A stretch of DNA of 64,000 bases from Halobaculum sp. CBA1158 (lineage in GTDB: Archaea > Halobacteriota > Halobacteria > Halobacteriales > Haloferacaceae). Below the pieces are notes generated by a model that worked only from the letters and a program-made list of their open reading frames with translations, searched no databases and was not told the DNA's origin. Location: positions 806,001 through 870,000 of the forward strand of contig NZ_CP090371.1 in assembly GCF_021431925.1 (NCBI RefSeq), given 5' to 3'. The stretch's first letter is position 1. Each line of letters begins with the position of its first letter. The translations under genes and the position numbers were made by a program. Below, piece after piece: positions 30,436 through 39,808 of the stretch.

Positions 30436-30507
30436 GGGCTCGTAGATCAGCGGTAGATCGCTTCCTTCGCAAGGAAGAGGCCCTGGGTTCAAATCCCAGC
30501 GAGTCCA
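30436..30507 (+). tRNA. tRNA-Ala (CGC)
   Basis: The 72-nt cloverleaf has acceptor GGGCTCG pairing with CGAGTCC and discriminator A, anticodon stem CTTCC/GGAAG with loop TTCGCAA (anticodon CGC), and T-arm CTGGG-TTCAAAT-CCCAG. There is no intron and CCA is not encoded. Its last 14 nt are repeated at 33459-33472, marking it as the insertion site of a small element. Confidence 0.95.
30494..30507 (+). repeat. Left attachment repeat (inside tRNA-Ala 3' end)
   Basis: TCCCAGCGAGTCCA, the last 14 nt of tRNA-Ala, matches 33459-33472 exactly in the same orientation, 2,965 bp apart. Integrases of archaeal elements commonly target this part of a tRNA gene and leave such repeats at both ends. Confidence 0.75.
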
Positions 30508-30684
30508 TCCCACTTCGGCTCGCTCTCGAAGGACCACAAAACGGCGAGTCACAACCCTGAATCGGGTGCTTCCTCCGTAGCCACGCGAAACGAACCTGAA
30601 AAGTACAGAGAGTTCACTGACATTCTCGGCGATCCCCGTGCAGTCGCGCGAATGAAGGCGGTGCTCCGGGGTGGTGTTGCATGA
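30508..30684 (+). pseudogene. C-terminal remnant of an unidentified gene
   Basis: The frame ending at TGA 30682-30684 encodes a convincing protein tail (ATRNEPEKYREFTDILGDPRA, then VARMKAVLRGGVA) with haloarchaeal codon use, but no start codon precedes it; the frame simply runs back into the tRNA. A second ORF of 15 codons (30681-30728, MSVTADPNGRNSVHR) overlaps its stop by ATGA, which is normal operon spacing. The parent gene is not recognised. Loss of the 5' part at the attachment site fits a deletion when the element decayed. Confidence 0.55.
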
Positions 30685-30727
30685 GCGTCACCGCAGACCC
30701 GAACGGGAGGAATTCGGTTCACCGGTA

Positions 30728-30770
30728 GGGGGTGTAGCTAAGGCCACCTCATCATTAGACCACAGCCCCC
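30728..30770. other. 43-nt imperfect hairpin, possible structured RNA
   Basis: GGGGGTGTAGCTAA can fold back on TTAGACCACAGCCCCC with one bulge and a mismatch, leaving a 13-nt loop. On the minus strand the loop region reads TCTAATGATGAGG, similar to the 5' half of some tRNAs and to a box C (ATGATGA), but no matching box D or full cloverleaf is seen. Confidence 0.3.
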
Positions 30771-31279
30771 GCGACGTGAGCCGCAGGCGAAGCACCCCTC
30801 CGGGCGCGCGAAAAAATTCGTCAGAAGCAAAGTGGAACGGCTGTTAGGAAGGGATTGCCCACCCACCTTTTGCGCTGCGGGCCGGCTCCGCCGGCCCTCG
30901 GCAAAAGCTGGAGCAAAAGCACTCCTCCCTCGCTTCAGGCGGCGGAGCCGCCTTCCGCTCGGTCGTCGGCCCGCTCGCTCGCTACGCTCGCTCGCGGTGG
31001 GTGCGTCTATTGTTCTTAGTTTCTCTGTATTGACGGCAACTGGAACAGGATATATCACGTGCAGAGGATTTCAACAGAGCCACTCTACCGGGTATACCTC
31101 GAGTCATCACACCGAGCACGTGACCTCCGTGACCGTCAATAATACGCAGCGCCGGAGACGGGGTTCAGTCTCGCATGTATGTCGCTTCGATGGTCCACCC
31201 ACCGTGTGATCTGGAATCGGGTACGATCACAGACCCGCCTATCACGTGCTCACTTACGGTCAGTACATCGCGGACCCAG
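30771..31279. other. Non-coding stretch inside the element
   Basis: No convincing gene lies in these 509 bp. The middle (30860-31010) is made of GC-rich short inverted repeats (for example CCGGCTCCGCCGG and GGCGGCGGAGCCGCC) and CTCGCTCGC stretches, a pattern seen in haloarchaeal accessory regions. Open frames across it are rich in Arg, Ser and Pro and are probably spurious. Confidence 0.5.
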
Positions 31280-31849
31280 TCAACAGAGGTAGTACCTTTG
31301 ATCGCCATCAAGTAAATCGATACAGTACACGGTATTTTGATACCGGAGATACACGGCACTCACGTAATCAGGGACTGGTGTATCTGGGTTCTCTTCCTCA
31401 TAAGCGGTTGTTTGCTGAGAGAGGCGATCAATGATTTGATTGATTAGTTCTTGCAACCCAGCTGTTCGGTCAGTCTCCGGAATTCCCTGCTGAGCAGGGT
31501 ATTCAACCTTGTACTCGTACCCTGTGATCGCATAATCGAGGATTTCCTTTTTATTTGAAGACAGGAGATCATACCGTACCGGGTCGATATTTGACCGCTC
31601 TTCGTCGGAAAGCTGGACCTGGTTTAGTCGAATAGAGGTTTCAGAAGTCGGAAAAGTCGTCTGCGTCGGCGATTCCGTCGTTTCAGGTGTCGGAGATGGA
31701 CTCGACTGCCCACTAGTGGACTGTCGCTCGGTCTCGGTCATCTCTGTAGCGGAACGCTGTCCCTGTTCCGACTCCCCGAGGCACCCAGAAATCCCGAGCA
31801 CAATTGCTACTATTCCACTGAGCATAGACCGCCTCGAGCACACATTCAT
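31280..31849 (-). CDS. Secreted lipoprotein of unknown function
   Basis: The product is 189 aa. The N-terminus has an arginine-containing signal (CSRRSMLSGIVAIVLGISGC) ending in a lipobox LGISGC, so Cys22 should be lipid-modified and the protein anchored outside. A Ser/Thr/Pro/Gln-rich linker of about 50 residues, a likely O-glycosylation region, leads to a C-terminal domain of about 110 residues with several aromatic residues and two cysteines (YCIDL and the final Cys). No family is recognised. The gene is notably AT-richer than its surroundings, consistent with its place in the integrated element. The 244 bp upstream are AT-rich and show no gene. Confidence 0.75.
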   Translation of the reverse strand: MNVCSRRSMLSGIVAIVLGISGCLGESEQGQRSATEMTETERQSTSGQSSPSPTPETTESPTQTTFPTSETSIRLNQVQLSDEERSNIDPVRYDLLSSNKKEILDYAITGYEYKVEYPAQQGIPETDRTAGLQELINQIIDRLSQQTTAYEEENPDTPVPDYVSAVYLRYQNTVYCIDLLDGDQRYYLC

Positions 31850-32093
31850 CGGTTATTTCTCATTATATTCTACTTAAATGGTTTGTGTATAAGTAGCAAT
31901 AAAAATGGAAACTTTCATACTAATTATCTAAGTCGATATTTAATAATTCTTGTACGAATTATGGAGGGAGATGTAATATCGAGGTAGACAAACGAGTCTA
32001 TCTGTACCAGACAAATAGCCTGTACTGGCTTTGTTGAAATCTCAGTTATTCGACATCTTTCTTGCTGAAACAGCCGACAGGGAGGCGTGCGAA

Positions 32094-32396
32094 TCAATCA
32101 ACTCTCGTTCCTCGAACCACGCCGGATGCCGCGTAGTAGAGTGCACCGAGGAGAACGGACAGTAGATATGTATATATGAAGAATATACCAGCGATCAGCG
32201 GGAGACACGACAGCGTCCTACAACCCGAAATCCGGCCCGATTCGAGCGCGAGAGTCCAGACGGTGCCGGCCAACCAGTCGAACTGTACGGAACCATCCGT
32301 GAGTAACGGAGGGACGACCCCCGAAACAAGAATCAACAGGAACGCCGCTAGGACAGCCCGATTCAGGAAGATAGTGCGAATTCGCCGCCGCTCCAT
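32094..32396 (-). CDS. Small two-helix membrane protein
   Basis: The product is 100 aa from the ATG at 32396, supported by a GGGAGG ribosome-binding site just upstream. It has a basic start (MERRRIRTIFLNR), a first helix (AVLAAFLLILVSGVVPPLL), a polar loop with a Cys pair (GCRTLSC), and a second helix (LPLIAGIFFIYTYLLSVLLGALYYAAS). The frame is open upstream to 32468 but that part lacks supporting features. The function is unknown; codon use is less GC-biased than in chromosomal neighbours. Confidence 0.6.
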   Translation of the reverse strand: MERRRIRTIFLNRAVLAAFLLILVSGVVPPLLTDGSVQFDWLAGTVWTLALESGRISGCRTLSCLPLIAGIFFIYTYLLSVLLGALYYAASGVVRGTRVD

Positions 32397-32483
32397 AGGC
32401 CCTCCCTTCAGGACACTCCGGTAAGTGCTTTGACTGTATCTATCGCTGTCAACTGTGAGGTCGAAGCACAAAACCGAGCGTCG

Positions 32484-32633
32484 CTACTCCTCGTCGCCGC
32501 CGTCCGCGATCCGCTTCCCGCCGGCACGGTAGTCCTCGGGGTCGCCGCCGAGATCCTCGGCGAGCGCCTCCCGCAGCTCCTCGCCCTGTTCGTCCATCGC
32601 CTCCTTGAACTCCGTGAATTCCTCGTCGGTCAT
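32484..32633 (-). CDS. Small acidic protein, third gene of HicB-like mini-operon
   Basis: The product is 49 aa, strongly acidic (MTDEEFTEFKEAMDEQGEELREALAEDLGG at the start), predicted helical and without cysteines. Its ATG overlaps the stop of the upstream gene by 4 bp, so it is translated with it. No family is recognised. Confidence 0.6.
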   Translation of the reverse strand: MTDEEFTEFKEAMDEQGEELREALAEDLGGDPEDYRAGGKRIADGGDEE

Positions 32634-33004
32634 CGGTTCCGTGTTCCGTGCCATTCCTCGTACCTCTTGATATACCGTTCGCCGTGTTCGGATAAGTGTT
32701 CTTCGGCGAACGACAACGCCTCGCTCGGCGGCATCGGCGGGAACACCTCTCCACCGTCGATCTGCTCGCCGTCGCGGTACACGTCCATGTGGACCCCCTC
32801 TTCCAGCACGTCGTGCCCGAAATCCGATTCGGGGTCATGGTCAAAGCGCACGATGGGTTCCCACCTGTCGCCGTGGTCGTACTCGATCTGCACGACGAAG
32901 CGGGTTATCGTCCCGTTGTCGGAGGTGTAGCCGATTCGCCGCCGAACACGGTAATCGATCGGCGTGGTGAACTCGCGATCGTACTCGCGTGGCTCGTCAC
33001 TCAT
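32630..33004 (-). CDS. DUF7718-like haloarchaeal protein
   Basis: The product is 124 aa. The segment IGYTSDNGTITRFVVQIEYDHGDRWEPIVRFDHD, then EEGVHMDVYRDGEQ and EALSFAEEHLSEHGERYIKRYEEWHG, resembles a haloarchaeal family I recall as DUF7718. It is the middle gene of a three-gene set: its start overlaps the HicB-like gene by 8 bp and its stop overlaps the 49-aa gene by 4 bp. Placement behind a small antitoxin-like gene suggests a toxin-antitoxin-type role, but no nuclease motif is visible. Confidence 0.7.
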   Translation of the reverse strand: MSDEPREYDREFTTPIDYRVRRRIGYTSDNGTITRFVVQIEYDHGDRWEPIVRFDHDPESDFGHDVLEEGVHMDVYRDGEQIDGGEVFPPMPPSEALSFAEEHLSEHGERYIKRYEEWHGTRNR

Positions 33005-33149
33005 CAGCGCGTTCGAGGTCTGAGGCGTCGAGGTTCGATAGCGCCTCTTCCCGGATCTCCCCGGTCCCGGTGACGCCGGATTCCTCGTCGACGGCGGCGC
33101 ATTCGCCGTCGTCCGTCTGGATGAGACGGATGTCGCGCTTCGTGTTCAT
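32997..33149 (-). CDS. Small HicB-like antitoxin-type protein
   Basis: The product is 50 aa (start 33149). The core AAVDEESGVTGTGEIREEALSNLDASDL matches the short beta-beta-alpha HicB antitoxin pattern, in which a strand is followed by TGV.TQG.TREEAL.NL. It lacks the C-terminal DNA-binding domain of long HicB proteins. A HicA-type toxin is not adjacent; the partner may be the DUF7718-like protein. The start codon lies 10 bp after an 18-bp palindrome that overlaps the promoter, which suggests autoregulation. Confidence 0.6.
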   Translation of the reverse strand: MNTKRDIRLIQTDDGECAAVDEESGVTGTGEIREEALSNLDASDLERADE

Positions 33150-33158
33150 GGTCGGTCG

Positions 33159-33176
33159 TTGTCCGAAATCGGACAA
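33159..33176. promoter_or_regulatory. 18-bp palindromic operator over the HicB-like promoter
   Basis: TTGTCCGA-AA-TCGGACAA is a perfect 8-bp inverted repeat with a 2-bp spacer. It covers the space between the TATA-like CTTTTG (centred about 27 nt before the ATG, minus strand) and the start codon, so a bound dimer would block initiation. It is much more symmetrical than its surroundings. Confidence 0.65.
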
Positions 33177-33186
33177 AAGCCTTCGG

Positions 33187-33426
33187 TCAGTCCTCGTCGT
33201 CGGGGGAATCGTCTATCACGGCGTCGAAGTCGCCCGTATCCTCGTACCTGTCTCCAGGATTATAAATAAGTCGTCTGTCGACGCAGGCCTGCTCACGGCC
33301 GTCGACGGCTCAGTCGGAGGGTTCCCCGCTGGCGTGCTCGCGTTCCAGTTCGTGGTGTTCAGCCTCTCGGCGGCCGTTCTCGCCCTCGAAGTGACTTACA
33401 CGAATGCGCTGTGAGCAGTCGTACAT
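33187..33426 (-). pseudogene. 38-codon ORF continuing in frame past a TGA
   Basis: From ATG 33426 a 38-aa product is encoded (starting MYDCSQRIRVSHFEGENGRR and ending HASGEPSD, stop at 33310). The same frame then continues 40 more codons with haloarchaeal-like acidic sequence (NPGDRYEDTGDFDAVIDDSP) to a stop at 33187. This suggests a gene of about 79 codons broken by one in-frame TGA, or a 38-aa protein by itself. It lies directly inside the right attachment repeat. No family is recognised. Confidence 0.4.
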
Positions 33427-33458
33427 TGTGAATGCACAAGAGAGGCCTAGTGGAACGC

Positions 33459-33472
33459 TCCCAGCGAGTCCA
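33459..33472 (+). repeat. Right attachment repeat (copy of tRNA-Ala 3' end)
   Basis: Exact 14-bp match to the tRNA-Ala 3' terminus, followed by CTCCCGC and a T5 run that resembles a tRNA terminator. It marks the right end of the integrated element. Confidence 0.75.
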
Positions 33473-33491
33473 CTCCCGCTTTTTCCGACGC

Positions 33492-34163
33492 CTACGTCCC
33501 GGAGACGAGCGTCTCGCGCAGTTCGTGAAGCGAGTCGACGTCGAACGCCGGTTCGGGTTCGAGTTCGTCGTCGGTGTTGAACTCCCGGCGAACGAACGCG
33601 GCGTCGATGCCGACGTTGTGCGCGGCGGCCACGTCCGAGGGTCGGTCCCCGACGTACACCGCCCGGTCGGGCGTCAGGTCCGCGAGCGCCCGGTTCATGT
33701 ACCGCGTCCCCGGCTTCTCAGCGCCGACGTCCTCGACGCCCGGTCGGAGGCCGTAGTAGGTGTCGAAGCGGTCGTCGAGCCCGAACCGGTCGAGCACGCG
33801 TTCGATGGCGCTGTGCTGGTTGTTGCTCACGATACCGCGGGCCGTCGGGAGGTCGAGGAGGGCGCGCGCGTCGTCGTACAGCGCCTTCTCGCCGTCCGTC
33901 ATCGCAGTCACCTGGTTCTCCGTGACGAGCTCGTTTCGGCGGTGCCACAGGTCGTCGAAGCGGATCCCGTATGTCGACGCGAAGTGCTCCCGGGCGGCCG
34001 CGAGCCCGCCCTCCAACGTTCGAACGACGCGGAACTCTCGGGCGGTCGGGTCGTCGATGTCCGCCTCCGCCAGCGTCCGCTCGGCCGCGTCGTCGAACAC
34101 CCACGACGGCGACCGCTCCACCAACACCCCGTCCATGTCGAACACGACGGCGTCGTACTCCAT
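33492..34163 (-). CDS. HAD-superfamily phosphatase (phosphoglycolate phosphatase-like)
   Basis: The product is 223 aa. Motif I is DMDGVLVERSPSW (nucleophile Asp9), motif II GIVSNNQHSAIERVLDRFGL, motif III GAEKPGTRYMNRAL and motif IV VYVGDRPSDVAAAHNVGIDAAFVRR. An alpha-helical C1 cap lies between motifs I and II. The class covers phosphoglycolate phosphatase and similar small-molecule phosphatases; the substrate is not evident. It diverges from the glycosyltransferase gene at 34276 and is the first gene outside the integrated element. Confidence 0.85.
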   Translation of the reverse strand: MEYDAVVFDMDGVLVERSPSWVFDDAAERTLAEADIDDPTAREFRVVRTLEGGLAAAREHFASTYGIRFDDLWHRRNELVTENQVTAMTDGEKALYDDARALLDLPTARGIVSNNQHSAIERVLDRFGLDDRFDTYYGLRPGVEDVGAEKPGTRYMNRALADLTPDRAVYVGDRPSDVAAAHNVGIDAAFVRREFNTDDELEPEPAFDVDSLHELRETLVSGT

Positions 34164-34275
34164 GACGCTTGCAGCGCCCCCGTGTGCATGAGGCTGACGG
34201 GTGACCTGTCACGACCCGCTGGGTACCGCCCCAAGACACATATCCGAGGCGTCGAAGACAGCCCCAGACACCACC

Positions 34276-35652
34276 ATGGCACCGACGGTAGCCGTCGCAC
34301 ACTACCCCGAGGGGGCGGGGCACGCGACACGGATGCTCGCGATCGCCGAGGCGATCGAGGACGCCGGGGGGACCGTCCGGATGGCTGGCGGCGGTGCCGG
34401 CACCGAGTTCGTTGCGCTCAACGGGTACGACGAGTTCGAGCCGACCGTCGTCGACTACATCGGCGACTATCAGGACGGGTCGGTGTGGCGGACCGCGACC
34501 CGAAGCCTGCCGGCGAGCGTCGACCGGATCGCCGACTACCGGGCGTGGCTGTCGGCGACCGAGCCGGACGCGCTCGTCACCGACGACATGTTCGCGGCCA
34601 TCGCGGCGACGCGGTGCGACGTGCCGCTGTACGTGCTGAAACACGACATGCCGGGGCTGTACGACGACCTGCTCGAACGAACCGGGGCGGGCGTTCACAC
34701 CCGGTTCCAGCTGTCGGCCGCGCGGGAGTTCTTCTACCCGGTCGTGTGGCCCGAATCCGGCGCGGACCCGCCGCGTGCGACGCGGATCCCACCGGTCGCG
34801 CTCGACGGCGAGCCGCCGGTTCGAGACGGGTACGACGTGGTGGTCGTGCCGAGTCACTACTCGTCGCTGTCGCGGATTGCCGACCACCTCCGGCGACAGG
34901 GGTACGACGTGCTCGACGTGTCCGACGAGTCGTGGGAGCCCGTCGAGTCGCTGTTGCCGTATCTCCGCGGAGCCGACGCGGTCGTCTGCTCGGGCTACTC
35001 GACCGTGATGGACGCCGCCGTCGCCGGAACGCCCTGCGTCGTCCACCCGGCGACCGACGAGCAGGACGCCGTCGCGGAGTGGCTCGAGCGGTTCGACGTG
35101 ACCGGCTTCGCCGTCGCGCCAGATCCGATCGACGTGCTCGATGCCGTCGCGGCCCCGCCCGACCCGCCGGCGTTCGAGAACGGGGCCGAGTTCATCGCTC
35201 GGCGGGTCACGACCGATCTGTGTGACCCCGACCCGTACGCGGCCGAGGAGGTCGACGGTGCTGAGGAGATCGACGGTACCGGGGCGGTCGACGGGACCGA
35301 GGTGCAGGCGACGGACCCGGAGGCGGCCGCCGGGATGGCCCGCGCGAACGCTCCCGTCGCCACCGGATCTCGCCTCGCGTCGTTCGCGGCCGTGCCGGCG
35401 CTCGCGGCGGCGTGTCTCGTCACGACCGGGAGCCTCCTGTCGCCCTCGCGTGCGGGACGGTCCGTGGCAGGGACGGTCGCGCGGGGCGTCGGCGGGCTCC
35501 GAACTGCCGGCGGCCACCTGCGCCGGGCGGGCGGTCGCGTCGCCGGTGCGGTCGCCGGCGCTGTGACCGATGCGTTGTCGGCTGGCCGCGACGGGTGTGG
35601 GGACGCGGTCGGTCGAGTTCGCCGTGTCGTCCCCGATCGGAGTCCGTTCTGA
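34276..35652 (+). CDS. GT-B fold glycosyltransferase (MurG/UDP-glycosyltransferase-like)
   Basis: The product is 458 aa. The N-terminal half has the acceptor-side loop VAVAHYPEGAGHATRMLAIAEAI. The C-terminal half has the donor-binding pattern PYLRGADAVVCSGYSTVMDAAVAGTPCVVHPATDEQDAVAEWLERF, like the glycosyltransferase family 28 C-terminal domain. After residue 320 an acidic linker leads to an Ala/Gly/Arg-rich tail with a hydrophobic stretch (FAAVPALAAACLVTTGSLL), possibly a membrane-association segment. It probably glycosylates a lipid or envelope component; substrates are unknown. The start at 34276 gives the canonical N-terminus, and upstream in-frame residues are not conserved-looking. Confidence 0.8.
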   Translation: MAPTVAVAHYPEGAGHATRMLAIAEAIEDAGGTVRMAGGGAGTEFVALNGYDEFEPTVVDYIGDYQDGSVWRTATRSLPASVDRIADYRAWLSATEPDALVTDDMFAAIAATRCDVPLYVLKHDMPGLYDDLLERTGAGVHTRFQLSAAREFFYPVVWPESGADPPRATRIPPVALDGEPPVRDGYDVVVVPSHYSSLSRIADHLRRQGYDVLDVSDESWEPVESLLPYLRGADAVVCSGYSTVMDAAVAGTPCVVHPATDEQDAVAEWLERFDVTGFAVAPDPIDVLDAVAAPPDPPAFENGAEFIARRVTTDLCDPDPYAAEEVDGAEEIDGTGAVDGTEVQATDPEAAAGMARANAPVATGSRLASFAAVPALAAACLVTTGSLLSPSRAGRSVAGTVARGVGGLRTAGGHLRRAGGRVAGAVAGAVTDALSAGRDGCGDAVGRVRRVVPDRSPF

Positions 35653-35686
35653 GCGCGAACTGCCGTCCGGTGTCGTGCGCCGTCGA

Positions 35687-36115
35687 CTACACGCGCCGCT
35701 CGGTCACGTCGCCGTCGGCGTCGACGAGGAGGAGCCGGTCGACGCCGTCGAGCACGTCCGACCGGACGGCGTCGGCGTCGCTGGCCGGGAACGCGAGGGC
35801 CGTGTAAACGCGGTCGATGTCGACCGCATAGACGCGGCGGTCGAGGCTTTCGGCGTACCGGCCGTCCGCGACCTCGCGGAGCTTTCGCGCGTCGTCGACG
35901 TCGAAGTACGGCTTGCTCTCGACGACCAGCACGTCCCGCTCGCGGTAGGCGACGACGTCCGGCACGATCGACCCGCCGTGTTTTGTGCCGTCGGCGCGGT
36001 CGGCCGGGTGGAGCCGCAGCCCCGACCCGCTGGTGGGGTAGTCGACGGCGAACATGGTCCACCCCTCGCGCGTCAGGTGCGCTTCGACGGCCTCGGTGAC
36101 TCGTTCCTCGTTCAT
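35687..36115 (-). CDS. PD-(D/E)XK nuclease-fold protein
   Basis: The product is 142 aa. The core HGGSIVPDVVAYRERDVLVVESKPYFDVDD holds a textbook PD-(D/E)XK motif: Pro52-Asp53 and Glu66-x-Lys68, in the beta-hairpin of the restriction-nuclease fold. The N-terminal helix (NEERVTEAVEAHLTREGW) is also typical. It starts 7 bp after the stop of the 416-aa gene upstream and ends the three-gene operon that begins with the methyltransferase-glycosylase fusion. A DNA-cleaving role, possibly as restriction subunit, is inferred from motif and context. Confidence 0.75.
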   Translation of the reverse strand: MNEERVTEAVEAHLTREGWTMFAVDYPTSGSGLRLHPADRADGTKHGGSIVPDVVAYRERDVLVVESKPYFDVDDARKLREVADGRYAESLDRRVYAVDIDRVYTALAFPASDADAVRSDVLDGVDRLLLVDADGDVTERRV

Positions 36116-36122
36116 CGCCGAG

Positions 36123-37373
36123 CTATCCCTCCCGCCACAACGCCCCGTCGTGAAACAGGATCGCGTCCGCGAAGTAGGCGTAACACCGGACGAGTTTCCG
36201 CTGTGTGTAGCGGGTGCCGTGGCGAACCTGCATGTAGTACCGGGGGATCTCGTGGGGCCGAAGGTCGTCGTACTCCCGCCCGAGCAGCAGTCGGCCGTCG
36301 ACCGACACCACCTTGTTAACCTCCTCAAGGAACGCCTCGACGGACGAGCCCTCCTCGCTTCTGGCCGACACCGACAGCGACCCGTCCTCCACGCTCACGC
36401 TCCCCCAACAGAACACCAGATTCCTGTCGCGCTCTCTGTACGACTCGCCGATGCGCGTCTCCAGGTAGTCGATGGCCGCCAGCGCGCCGGGATACGGGTC
36501 GCCGCGGATCTTCGCGTTCGCCGAGTAGATGACGGTCTCGTCGCGGCGTTCGAGCAGTTCCGGCGTGCAGTCGGGGTCTTCCTCCTCCAGATACTCCACG
36601 ACGAGGTCAGTCGGAACCGTGGTCGTGCTGGTGAGCGGCGACCACGTCCGATCGGGGCCTCCCTTGCTCGCGAACTCCTGGTGCATCCAGTTCCGGCGCT
36701 CGCGGATCGTTCGGTTCTTGATGAACTCGCGCTCGCTCCCGCCGGTGGCGCGGTCGACGAACACGTCGATCACCTCGAACAGGCGCTGCATCTCGGGGTC
36801 CGACCGCTCGGGCTGTCCCGCGATCTCGTCGTCGTACCGGAGTCCGTTCTGCGAGGAGGCCGCGGTCGGCGGCGAGCCGTCGCCGTCGAAGTCGGTCGGA
36901 TAGTAGAACAACAGCGCCGGTTCGTCGTGGATCTGCATCGCGCTCTCGAGGGCCCTGAACACGAGCGGATTGAGTTCGTCCCAGTCCTGGCTGTTCGTGC
37001 GGACGATGAACGACGCCTCGGGGTAGATGTACAGCGCCGGCACCGACGCCTCCACGGAGGCGGCGATCCGCGGGAACCGCTGGAACGCGTTGTGTCCGGT
37101 GCCCGCCTCCTCCGATATCTCGACGGTGAACAGCGGCTCGTCGTTCGCCTCGACGATCAGATCCGGCGAGTCCAGATAGAGGATCTCCTTGATGTGGTCG
37201 GGGACTCGGTGGAACTCCCGAGGGTCGCCGGCGTCGCTCTTCGGGAGGTGTTCCGTCTCGATGTCGGCCCCGTGTGCGGCGAGGTCGGTGTTCTCCACGA
37301 TGTACCGCGCGAACCGTTCGCTGTCGTGCCAGAGCCGAAACATCGGTCGATGGAACCGACTGGTCGCCGTCAC
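36123..37373 (-). CDS. Candidate restriction endonuclease of the methyltransferase operon
   Basis: The product is 416 aa, with no family recognised with certainty. Residues 68-90 (LDSPDLIVEANDEPLFTVEI and on) resemble an atypical PD-(D/E)XK hairpin (Pro70-Asp71, Glu85-x-Ser87) in which the lysine is replaced. The next block GTGHNAFQRFPRIAASVEASVPALYIYP looks like the helix and strand that follow it in such folds. The C-terminal 250 residues are mixed alpha/beta with many aromatics (RTWSPLTSTTT, EIPRYYMQVRHGTRYTQRKLVRCYAYFADAIL). It sits 64 bp after the m5C methyltransferase gene and 7 bp before a second nuclease-fold gene, so a type II restriction role is likely but unproven. Confidence 0.6.
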   Translation of the reverse strand: MTATSRFHRPMFRLWHDSERFARYIVENTDLAAHGADIETEHLPKSDAGDPREFHRVPDHIKEILYLDSPDLIVEANDEPLFTVEISEEAGTGHNAFQRFPRIAASVEASVPALYIYPEASFIVRTNSQDWDELNPLVFRALESAMQIHDEPALLFYYPTDFDGDGSPPTAASSQNGLRYDDEIAGQPERSDPEMQRLFEVIDVFVDRATGGSEREFIKNRTIRERRNWMHQEFASKGGPDRTWSPLTSTTTVPTDLVVEYLEEEDPDCTPELLERRDETVIYSANAKIRGDPYPGALAAIDYLETRIGESYRERDRNLVFCWGSVSVEDGSLSVSARSEEGSSVEAFLEEVNKVVSVDGRLLLGREYDDLRPHEIPRYYMQVRHGTRYTQRKLVRCYAYFADAILFHDGALWREG

Positions 37374-37437
37374 GTATTAAACCGGCGCGGATCGGTCCGC
37401 TTGTCGCTCGGCAGTCGTCGACGCCGGCGAGGGCGGC

Positions 37438-39471
37438 TCAGTCGTCGCGGGGGAACCGACACCGAAGCCTCGCCGGGCAGGCGTCACACCGCGGCGACGC
37501 CGCGGTACAGGTCTCACTCGCGAACGCCAGCAGCGAGCGAACGTACGCCGCGGGGTCGTCCTCGGGGGCGATGGCCTCGGCGAGTTCGCGGAGGTACTCA
37601 TCGTCGTCTCCGAGATCCGACCCGAACGAGCGGTCCACGTCGTCCGAACCCAGACCGTAGTAGCGACCGTACACCCTCGCGACGCGCTCGTCCACCACGG
37701 GGGCCGGGTCGCCGACGCCGAAACAGACGACCGTGGCGGCGACCGCCGGGGTCACGTGTGGCAGGTCGGTGAGCCTCTCCACGGTGGTCGGAAGGTCGCG
37801 GAAGAGCAGTTGCGTGCAGATGTCCCGCAGGTCGGCGATCCGGGCGTCGGCGTCGTCGATCCCGTGACGCTCGAGGAGCGTAGCGAGCGCCTCAGAGTCG
37901 GCCTCGCTGACGGCGTTCGCGTCCGGGTAGCGCTCGATCAGTTCGGCGTACGCCGCCGACACGTCGCCGTCGGTAGCGTCGCCGTCGGCGGTGTCGCCGT
38001 CGACAGCGTCGCCGGCGGCGTCACCGAGCAGGAGTTCGCCCGCGAGCACCTCGAACGGCGTCGGATCGGCGTCGGAGCGCATCCAGGGACGGACGGCGTC
38101 GCCCGACACGTCGGCCTCGCGGACGGCGTCGACCAGCGCTTGCGCGTCCCGCCCCCGGCGGACCGACTCGCCGATCCGTTCGGCCAGCAGCGGCGGGACG
38201 GCCATCCCCGTCTGTACGCGCCCCTGGACCGTGCCGCCCTCGAAGCGGAACGAGTCGGGGAACGACTGGAGGCGGGCGCGCTCGCGGACCGACAGTCCGC
38301 GGGACTGCTCGAAGTGACCGTACTGGAACTGCGGTCGGATCCCCCCGGCGATGATCGTCGGTCCCGGCTCGTCCGGGTGGAGGCGGATCCGCTGTCTGAA
38401 GCGGTCGTACATCGGCTCGCCGGGGTCGGTCCCCTCGACCCGGTCGATCGTCGTCTGTCGGTGATTGGGTGCCTGGTGGTTCGCGAGCGACGCGTCTGCG
38501 TCGCTGTCGTCACGGGTACCGTCGCTTCCGTCGCTGTCGTCGCGAGCACCGTCGTCGTCGCCGCTCTCGCCGTCGTCCGCGGCGGTGTCGCGCCCGTCGG
38601 CGACTCCCGCGTCGCGCTCGCGCATCAGCCGCTGGTACTCGGTGAGGTCGCCGTCGCCGGCCGCGTCGCGCTCAGTCGCGGCCTCGCCCGCGGCCAGCGC
38701 CGGCAGGTCGCCGATCGCCTCGGCGGCCGTCCGGTGATCCTCCTCGTGGGTCGGTCGCGGCCACAGGACCGGCGCGTCGGTTCGCGTTCCGAGGAAGAAC
38801 AGCCGCCGGCGCGTCTGCGGGACGCCGTAGTCCGCGGCGTTGAGGATCCGGTGGTCGACGGTGTAGCCGAGCCGGTCGAGGCACTCCTCGATCGCCTCGA
38901 CGAAGCCGCCGTCGTCGGCGGCCTTCATCGTCGAGACGTTCTCGATGAGGACGTACTCCGGGTCCAACAGCCGGACGCCCCTGATGAACTCCTCGAAGAG
39001 GTAGTTCCGCTCGTCCTCGTCGTGCTGCTTGCGGTTGGCGATCGAGAAGCCCTGGCAGGGGATGCCGGCCGTCAGCAGGTCCAGGTCGTCGCCGTCGAGC
39101 GCCTCCTCGGCCACCGTCGAGAGCATCGTCGACTCGACGGCGTCGTCGCTGTCGACGACGTCGAAGATGTCGCGCTCGTCGTCGTCCCGCTTGTTGATCC
39201 GCCGAATGTCGCCGAGGATCGTGTGAGCCTGGGGGTGGTTCTGCCGGTAGGTCCGCACCGACGGCTCGTGGATGTCGACCCCGAGCACCGCCTCGAAGCC
39301 GGCCCGTTCGAGCCCCGTCGAGATGCCGCCGGGACCGGAGAACAGGTCGATCACCGTCGGCCGGTCGCGGTCGCGCGACCCCGGTTCGACCGGGGGGAAG
39401 TGCTTCGGCTCGTCCGCCCAGTTGTGGCGGTTCTCCTCGATCTCGCTCCCGGGCTCCCACGCGTCAGCCAT
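37438..39471 (-). CDS. DNA (cytosine-5) methyltransferase fused to an Fe-S HhH-GPD DNA glycosylase
   Basis: The product is 677 aa. Residues 38-445 form a complete C5 methyltransferase: motif I DLFSGPGGISTGLERAGF, motif IV GIPCQGFS with catalytic Cys139, motif VI ENV (177-179), motif VIII QTRRR (219-223) and a C-terminal motif X region. An acidic low-complexity insert occupies about 260-335. Residues 470-677 form an EndoIII/MutY-type HhH-GPD domain: helix-hairpin-helix near 570-583, catalytic Asp594 in VVDERV, and a [4Fe-4S] loop C655-x6-C662-x2-C665-x5-C671. The usual EndoIII lysine position is Ala, so it is likely a monofunctional glycosylase. The start at 39471 places motif I at the usual distance. 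It is the first gene of a three-gene operon. Confidence 0.88.
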   Translation of the reverse strand: MADAWEPGSEIEENRHNWADEPKHFPPVEPGSRDRDRPTVIDLFSGPGGISTGLERAGFEAVLGVDIHEPSVRTYRQNHPQAHTILGDIRRINKRDDDERDIFDVVDSDDAVESTMLSTVAEEALDGDDLDLLTAGIPCQGFSIANRKQHDEDERNYLFEEFIRGVRLLDPEYVLIENVSTMKAADDGGFVEAIEECLDRLGYTVDHRILNAADYGVPQTRRRLFFLGTRTDAPVLWPRPTHEEDHRTAAEAIGDLPALAAGEAATERDAAGDGDLTEYQRLMRERDAGVADGRDTAADDGESGDDDGARDDSDGSDGTRDDSDADASLANHQAPNHRQTTIDRVEGTDPGEPMYDRFRQRIRLHPDEPGPTIIAGGIRPQFQYGHFEQSRGLSVRERARLQSFPDSFRFEGGTVQGRVQTGMAVPPLLAERIGESVRRGRDAQALVDAVREADVSGDAVRPWMRSDADPTPFEVLAGELLLGDAAGDAVDGDTADGDATDGDVSAAYAELIERYPDANAVSEADSEALATLLERHGIDDADARIADLRDICTQLLFRDLPTTVERLTDLPHVTPAVAATVVCFGVGDPAPVVDERVARVYGRYYGLGSDDVDRSFGSDLGDDDEYLRELAEAIAPEDDPAAYVRSLLAFASETCTAASPRCDACPARLRCRFPRDD

Positions 39472-39808
39472 CGTCCTCGATCGGGGCGTGGGTCGGTTCG
39501 GGGGCGTGCGCAGCCATCGGATCGGAGGAGTGCGCGGGGTCGTTTCATCGTTTCGCTCCGCACGGGCCGAACCCCTGCGAACGGTCCCCCGGCGACCGCG
39601 TCGGTAACGGGGCCGTCTCGGCGACGGCGACCGCGTCGGCGACGCGACCGCGCCAGCGCCGCAACCGGACCGCCAACGCGACCGCGCCGGCGACGTAGTC
39701 ACGTCTGTCTCGCGACGCGGTCACAACCGCCCTTCCTCGCAGTACCTCGGTTTCACTTTCACTCCGCATGGCTCGCGTACAAGTCGTCCCCGTCCATCAC
39801 GGTGAGGT

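Follow-up and report, generated by a model that had tools for sequence, protein, structure and literature searches.

The 64-kb stretch of Halobaculum chromosome analyzed here, referred to below as the window, carries genes for EF1A and S10, a rhomboid gene and a tRNA-Ala(CGC) gene on the left and a HAD gene on the right, with an insert of 2965 bp (30508–33472) located 3′ of the tRNA. The tRNA-Ala(CGC) gene, the target of the proposed insertion, occupies positions 30436–30507 on the (+) strand and is intact according to ARAGORN and Rfam. A repeat search revealed that its last 14 nt, TCCCAGCGAGTCCA, which we designate the left core (attL; 30494–30507, (+) strand), recur exactly at 33459–33472 on the same strand (right core; attR), and these are the only two exact copies in the window, just as an earlier reading of the sequence alone (the sequence-only reading) had noted. 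The repeat is exactly 14 nt long because the adjoining bases differ on both sides. Inexact copies of the tail (≤3 mismatches) were not in excess in the window, with 13 found versus 9.8 expected from shuffles, and the weight of the argument is therefore carried by the exact copy only. A chance repeat next to ordinary variable intergenic DNA, with no integration at all, would fit the shortness of the sequence and the lack of excess among inexact copies, but only ~0.0004 exact copies are expected per strand of the window under a first-order Markov model, exact copies of the core also bound the inserts of two congeners (G007 and G009), and the empty site of a third (G003) joins at the core; we give this explanation almost no credence.

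The AT-richer interior already noted is borne out by a GC content of 0.45–0.63 between the cores compared with ~0.62–0.77 in the flanks. On the 3′ side of the right core, a run of five T residues (33480–33484) falls within a segment (33473–33486, (+) strand) that, on comparison with empty sites, is plausibly the displaced trailer of the tRNA, because its position matches the T-rich stretch found directly 3′ of the tRNA at the empty sites of G002 and G003. The sequence-only reading, which took the T run for a displaced tRNA terminator, is thus plausible on this point.

The insert contains a dispersed, hairpin-bearing, GC-rich repeat of ~140 bp (30856–31003, unstranded); the same genome and many relatives carry copies of it with 72–96% identity, frequently more than one each. 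The protein-coding genes that follow are all on the (−) strand. A cargo gene for a 189-aa protein (31280–31849), judged lipoprotein-like from its N-terminus, matching no family above the cut-off and absent from the 2-kb element B of G009 described below, is followed by one for a 100-aa membrane-protein-like product (32094–32396), also cargo. The DNA around the latter (32088–32445) has a copy with 89% identity elsewhere in the same chromosome (G000:C1:2009575–2009932) and a 79% copy in G009, away from the tRNA-Ala site. Next come a 56-aa acidic protein (32484–32654), overlapping the gene for a 124-aa DUF7718 protein (32630–33004; Pfam PF24839, E-value of 1.4e-29), and a truncated DUF7387 gene (32997–33149), which survives as a 50-aa frame with ~40 of 85 family positions left. 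Relative to G007, the DUF7387 gene has been cut by a ~150-bp deletion between short imperfect repeats, and this deletion is common to the window and G009 and not found in G007. DUF7387 is a family that we take to be HicB-like, and no match to a HicA-like partner was detected among the proteins of the element. The claim that a HicB-like module had been kept was therefore not upheld, since the gene is truncated and the survivors are DUF7718 and the 56-aa acidic protein. Searches of Pfam, NCBIfam and PHROGs detected no viral structural genes (pleolipovirus spike, membrane or ATPase) among the five proteins of the element.

Within the decayed element, DUF7718 and its acidic partner look intact, and the same overlapping pair recurs in other genomes and in one viral contig, the small gene lying behind DUF7718. 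DUF7718 is present in 29 of 99 genomes of the family, and the search of viral contigs returned one relative, whose neighbors resemble tail genes as judged by eye. The dN/dS ratio was ~0.33 for DUF7718 (versus G007 and G006) and ~0.19 for the 56-aa gene (versus G007), in each case with few changes; these ratios suggest that the pair is kept. With respect to function, DUF7718 has no PDB relative by sequence (best E-value of 1.1), and its AlphaFold structure, predicted with moderate confidence from an alignment of two sequences (mean pLDDT of 79), yielded no Foldseek match better than an E-value of 0.55. A likeness to TumE-type toxins is at most conjectural, as none of these searches supports it.

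Comparison with 10 congeners (G001 to G010) revealed the tRNA-Ala(CGC) gene 3′ of S10 in all 10. Strains without the insertion, which the sequence-only reading had proposed to look for, do exist: in G003 and G002 the HAD gene directly follows the tRNA, and the window with 30508–33472 removed aligns with G003 straight through the core. A second exact core precedes the HAD gene in G007 and G009, and none was found in the first stretches examined behind the tRNA in G001, G004 and G008. No close HAD relative was found in G004, G008 or G010, the contig of the last stopping ~1.2 kb past the tRNA. Conserved synteny across genera, which would speak against an insertion, was not seen, and even within the genus the HAD gene follows the tRNA in part of the genomes only. 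In G005, ~20 kb separate the tRNA from the HAD gene, and a second exact core was not found there despite the presence of a window-type left end.

The expectation that like content comes with the right repeat held in G007 and G009 but failed in G006, where ~6 kb lie between the tRNA and the HAD gene and no second core was found behind the like content. Taken alone, G006 is the pattern that speaks against an insertion. However, other genes occupy the place of its right end, and we therefore read that end as lost secondarily. The right end of G007 is the same as that of the window, whereas its left end differs; this G007-type left end is also present in G006, ahead of a DUF7718 block. Both genomes (loci L041 in G007 and L042 in G006) accordingly have a common non-window left end in front of window-like content, and the arrangement looks as if a deletion had taken out the middle core between two tandem elements and so fused them. 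The genus thereby offers a clean series at one tRNA (empty, single, tandem and fused), which illustrates the arrival of elements at a tRNA and their subsequent decay.

A second variable segment was observed to the right of the HAD gene (34203–39738), missing in G003, G006, G007 and G009. It contains a DNA methyltransferase gene (37438–39702) and a stretch (36123–37373) that weakly matches a type II nicking endonuclease (E-value of 1.9e-6), and because of these two it is possibly a restriction-modification island. In G004 and G008, from which the HAD gene is also missing, sequence corresponding to position 39738 follows the tRNA within ~0.5 kb.

The integrase-bearing element that had been sought in the same tRNA was found in G009, in tandem with a relative of the window element. 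The order there is tRNA, a 51-kb element (A), a middle core, a 2-kb element (B), the right core and the HAD gene. Element B displays 88% identity to the left end of the window element (30494–30858) and 91% to its right end into the HAD gene (32436–34202), with a different interior. Element A encodes a 344-aa tyrosine integrase, the stop codon of which lies just ahead of the middle core; among 10 proteins examined (eight from element A and two from G007), Pfam matched six, including DUF7845, VWA, AAA and subtilase domains. When 392 genomes of the order were searched with the element A integrase, 337 had matches with an E-value of ≤1e-30, and the window's own genome had none at this threshold. 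At the best 30 integrase loci, that of G009 included, the tRNA-Ala tail (counted with up to three mismatches in 14) was found 7–75 nt past the integrase stop in all 30, against a chance expectation of ~0.02 per locus derived from shuffles of the window. Among named relatives, taken from 12 matching phage records, the integrase displays 53% identity to that of Harhisp1, 43% to HHPV4, 42% to SNJ2 and 41% to HRPV-9; none was found in viral contigs with this single-protein query, which reaches close relatives only. We also considered an integrase relic inside the window element and rejected it, as a hidden Markov model (HMM) of the 30 relatives gave a best score of 2.6 bits (E-value of 8.3). The earlier description of an old insertion without an integrase is consistent with this result and is further supported by the empty sites and the tandem relative.

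Tail-derived repeats of another kind occur in other genera: units of ~90–100 bp, arranged as tail, inverted tail and tail with a variable hairpin in each gap, at tRNA-Ala genes (L157–L176, L088, L092, L096–L100, L020 and L026). The strict pattern was found in 46 of 392 genomes of the order, and none of the listed genomes contained the reversed control; the window's own genome had no match. Among 29 extracted units, with at least two places represented twice, 19 are immediately preceded by a T-arm, which places them on a tRNA-Ala 3′ end, and others immediately follow the attR core of an integrase-bearing element. The sequence of their second hairpin varies while its complementarity is kept. The units might represent structured trailers, decoy attachment sites or integrated elements of minimal size.

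When the two ends of the window element are joined as in a circle, a single open reading frame of 81 codons runs from 33404 to a stop codon at 30682–30684, with both parts on the (+) strand. Its N-terminal part (33404–33472; 23 codons) passes through the right core and rejoins in frame with its C-terminal part (30508–30684; 58 codons plus stop). The frame has the same length in the window, element B of G009 and G005, while the rejoined frame of element A is 78 codons long and that of G007 is broken and does not rejoin across the core. The arrangement resembles the gene that, according to section 3.7 of PMC7911831, spans attP between the integrase gene and a CxxC gene in pleolipovirus-like proviruses and is split in the provirus. 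The start of the next gene overlaps the stop of the bridging frame (ATGA) and is cut after 15 codons (30681–30728, (+) strand, read from the sequence). In G007 and element A of G009, a CxxC gene begins near this position; in the window element it is gone, and the 15-codon start alone is left, which, together with the truncated DUF7387 gene, confirms that the genes are partly broken. Between the window and element B, the bridging frame has 23 differences (3, 12 and 8 by codon position), and with a dN of 0.12 and a dS of 0.21 this comparison gives no sign of selection and does not support a frame that is still selected.

A frame divided between the two ends and rejoining across the core is also the geometry of suicidal (SSV-type) integration as set out in PMC8371274, in which the split frame would be a cut integrase gene. 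Such an origin is exceedingly improbable here, as the joined frame has just 81 codons, the family HMM detects no integrase in the window element, element A of G009 has the same frame beside a separate, complete integrase gene, and the gene order of Harhisp1 likewise contradicts it.

A further mark lies past the left core. The motif CGAAGGACC (30527–30535, (+) strand) is a putative arm-type integrase site by positional conservation, with CGAA starting at nucleotide 20 beyond the core in the window, G005, element A of G009 and Harhisp1. Among the 28 integrase loci with sufficient sequence on the right, CGAA is at position 20 in eight, including element B of G009, and is missing from the other 20; its absence would be expected wherever the right side of the locus is chromosome. 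CGAA was absent at position 20 in all seven genus flanks taken as chromosomal (six congeners plus the right side of the window) and in all 16 tRNA-Ala(CGC) flanks of other genera (CGTAGGACG occupies this position in one of them). In G006 and G007, AGAAGG takes the place of CGAA. The fixed position suggests that the integrase may bind at CGAAGGACC, and it offers a testable guess at the binding place of SNJ2-type integrases. Remnants of this family that lack an integrase may be recognizable by two simple marks, namely a small frame restored when the ends are joined at the core and a CGAA at constant spacing from the core.

Taken together, these observations make it very probable that an SNJ2-type (pleolipovirus-like) integrative element once inserted here and that the 2965-bp stretch is what deletions have left of it. 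The stretch has a tRNA 3′-end core at both ends, an empty site in relatives and an attP within a split small frame, and it has neither an integrase gene beside the core nor a CxxC gene behind the bridging frame. Because the integrase gene is absent, we file it as a remnant and not as an intact member, and because neither an integrase remnant nor a viral structural gene was found, its type is read from its ends.

A composite scar, in which the right core would stem from an older or more extensive visitor while several later events (further insertions and recombination) assembled the content, no one element having ever possessed both of these ends, seems quite unlikely to us. It would account for G007, which has the right end of the window but another left end, for the differing interiors of the window, element B and G007, and for the left end without a right core in G005, but both ends are common to the window and element B at the identities given above, and in both the halves join in frame. 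The same three interiors are drawn on by another reading that we regard as doubtful though worth entertaining, namely that the locus is a mobilizable att island: non-autonomous, moved or reshuffled in trans by the SNJ2-type integrases of elements arriving later at this tRNA, with exchangeable cargo between two conserved ends, and retained at its site by DUF7718 and its 56-aa partner.

For the favored remnant of an integrated element, the circular form would have carried its attP, the 14-nt tRNA-Ala tail, in a small frame between the integrase gene and the next gene, and a tyrosine integrase would have recombined the circle with the 3′ end of tRNA-Ala(CGC). Integration would have displaced the trailer by 2965 bp and divided the small frame between the two ends, while the tRNA would have stayed whole because the core is identical. 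Later deletions would have stripped the element of its integrase gene and of most of its remaining genes, leaving the two ends and a changing cargo. The restored tRNA would go on receiving elements, as may be seen in G009 with a 51-kb element ahead of the relative of the remnant, and in the sister species G007 the left end would derive from a different element, a later arrival at the restored tRNA. We infer this order of events at the site and also that the element is no longer able to move by itself.

Among known systems, the likeness to HicAB modules amounts to a 50-aa frame matching DUF7387 only; the copy in the window is truncated, no HicA partner was found, and the genes that survive encode DUF7718 and the 56-aa acidic protein. 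SNJ2 (Natrinema sp. J7-1 virus 2), which integrates in tRNA-Met, is a functional virus in another tRNA, unlike the window element, and shares with it a 14-nt att site, its integrase being the 42% relative of that of element A. The length of the SNJ2 att site is given in PMC8371274, and SNJ2 orf26, as described in PMC13107129, spans attP, is translated and is required for replication after excision. Harhisp1, a Haloarcula hispanica provirus of the Pleolipoviridae (MW344767), is reported in tRNA-Ala in PMC7911831. It resembles the window element in its tRNA-Ala target and in the CGAA that begins at nucleotide 20 beyond the core, and its attP lies just behind the integrase that is 53% identical to that of element A; Harhisp1 is, however, a complete virus of 19.5 kb, whereas the window element has no integrase or detected virus genes. 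The two elements of G009 use the same tRNA and core as the window element: element A differs in its 51-kb length and its own integrase, and element B, 2 kb long with another interior, has both window-type ends.
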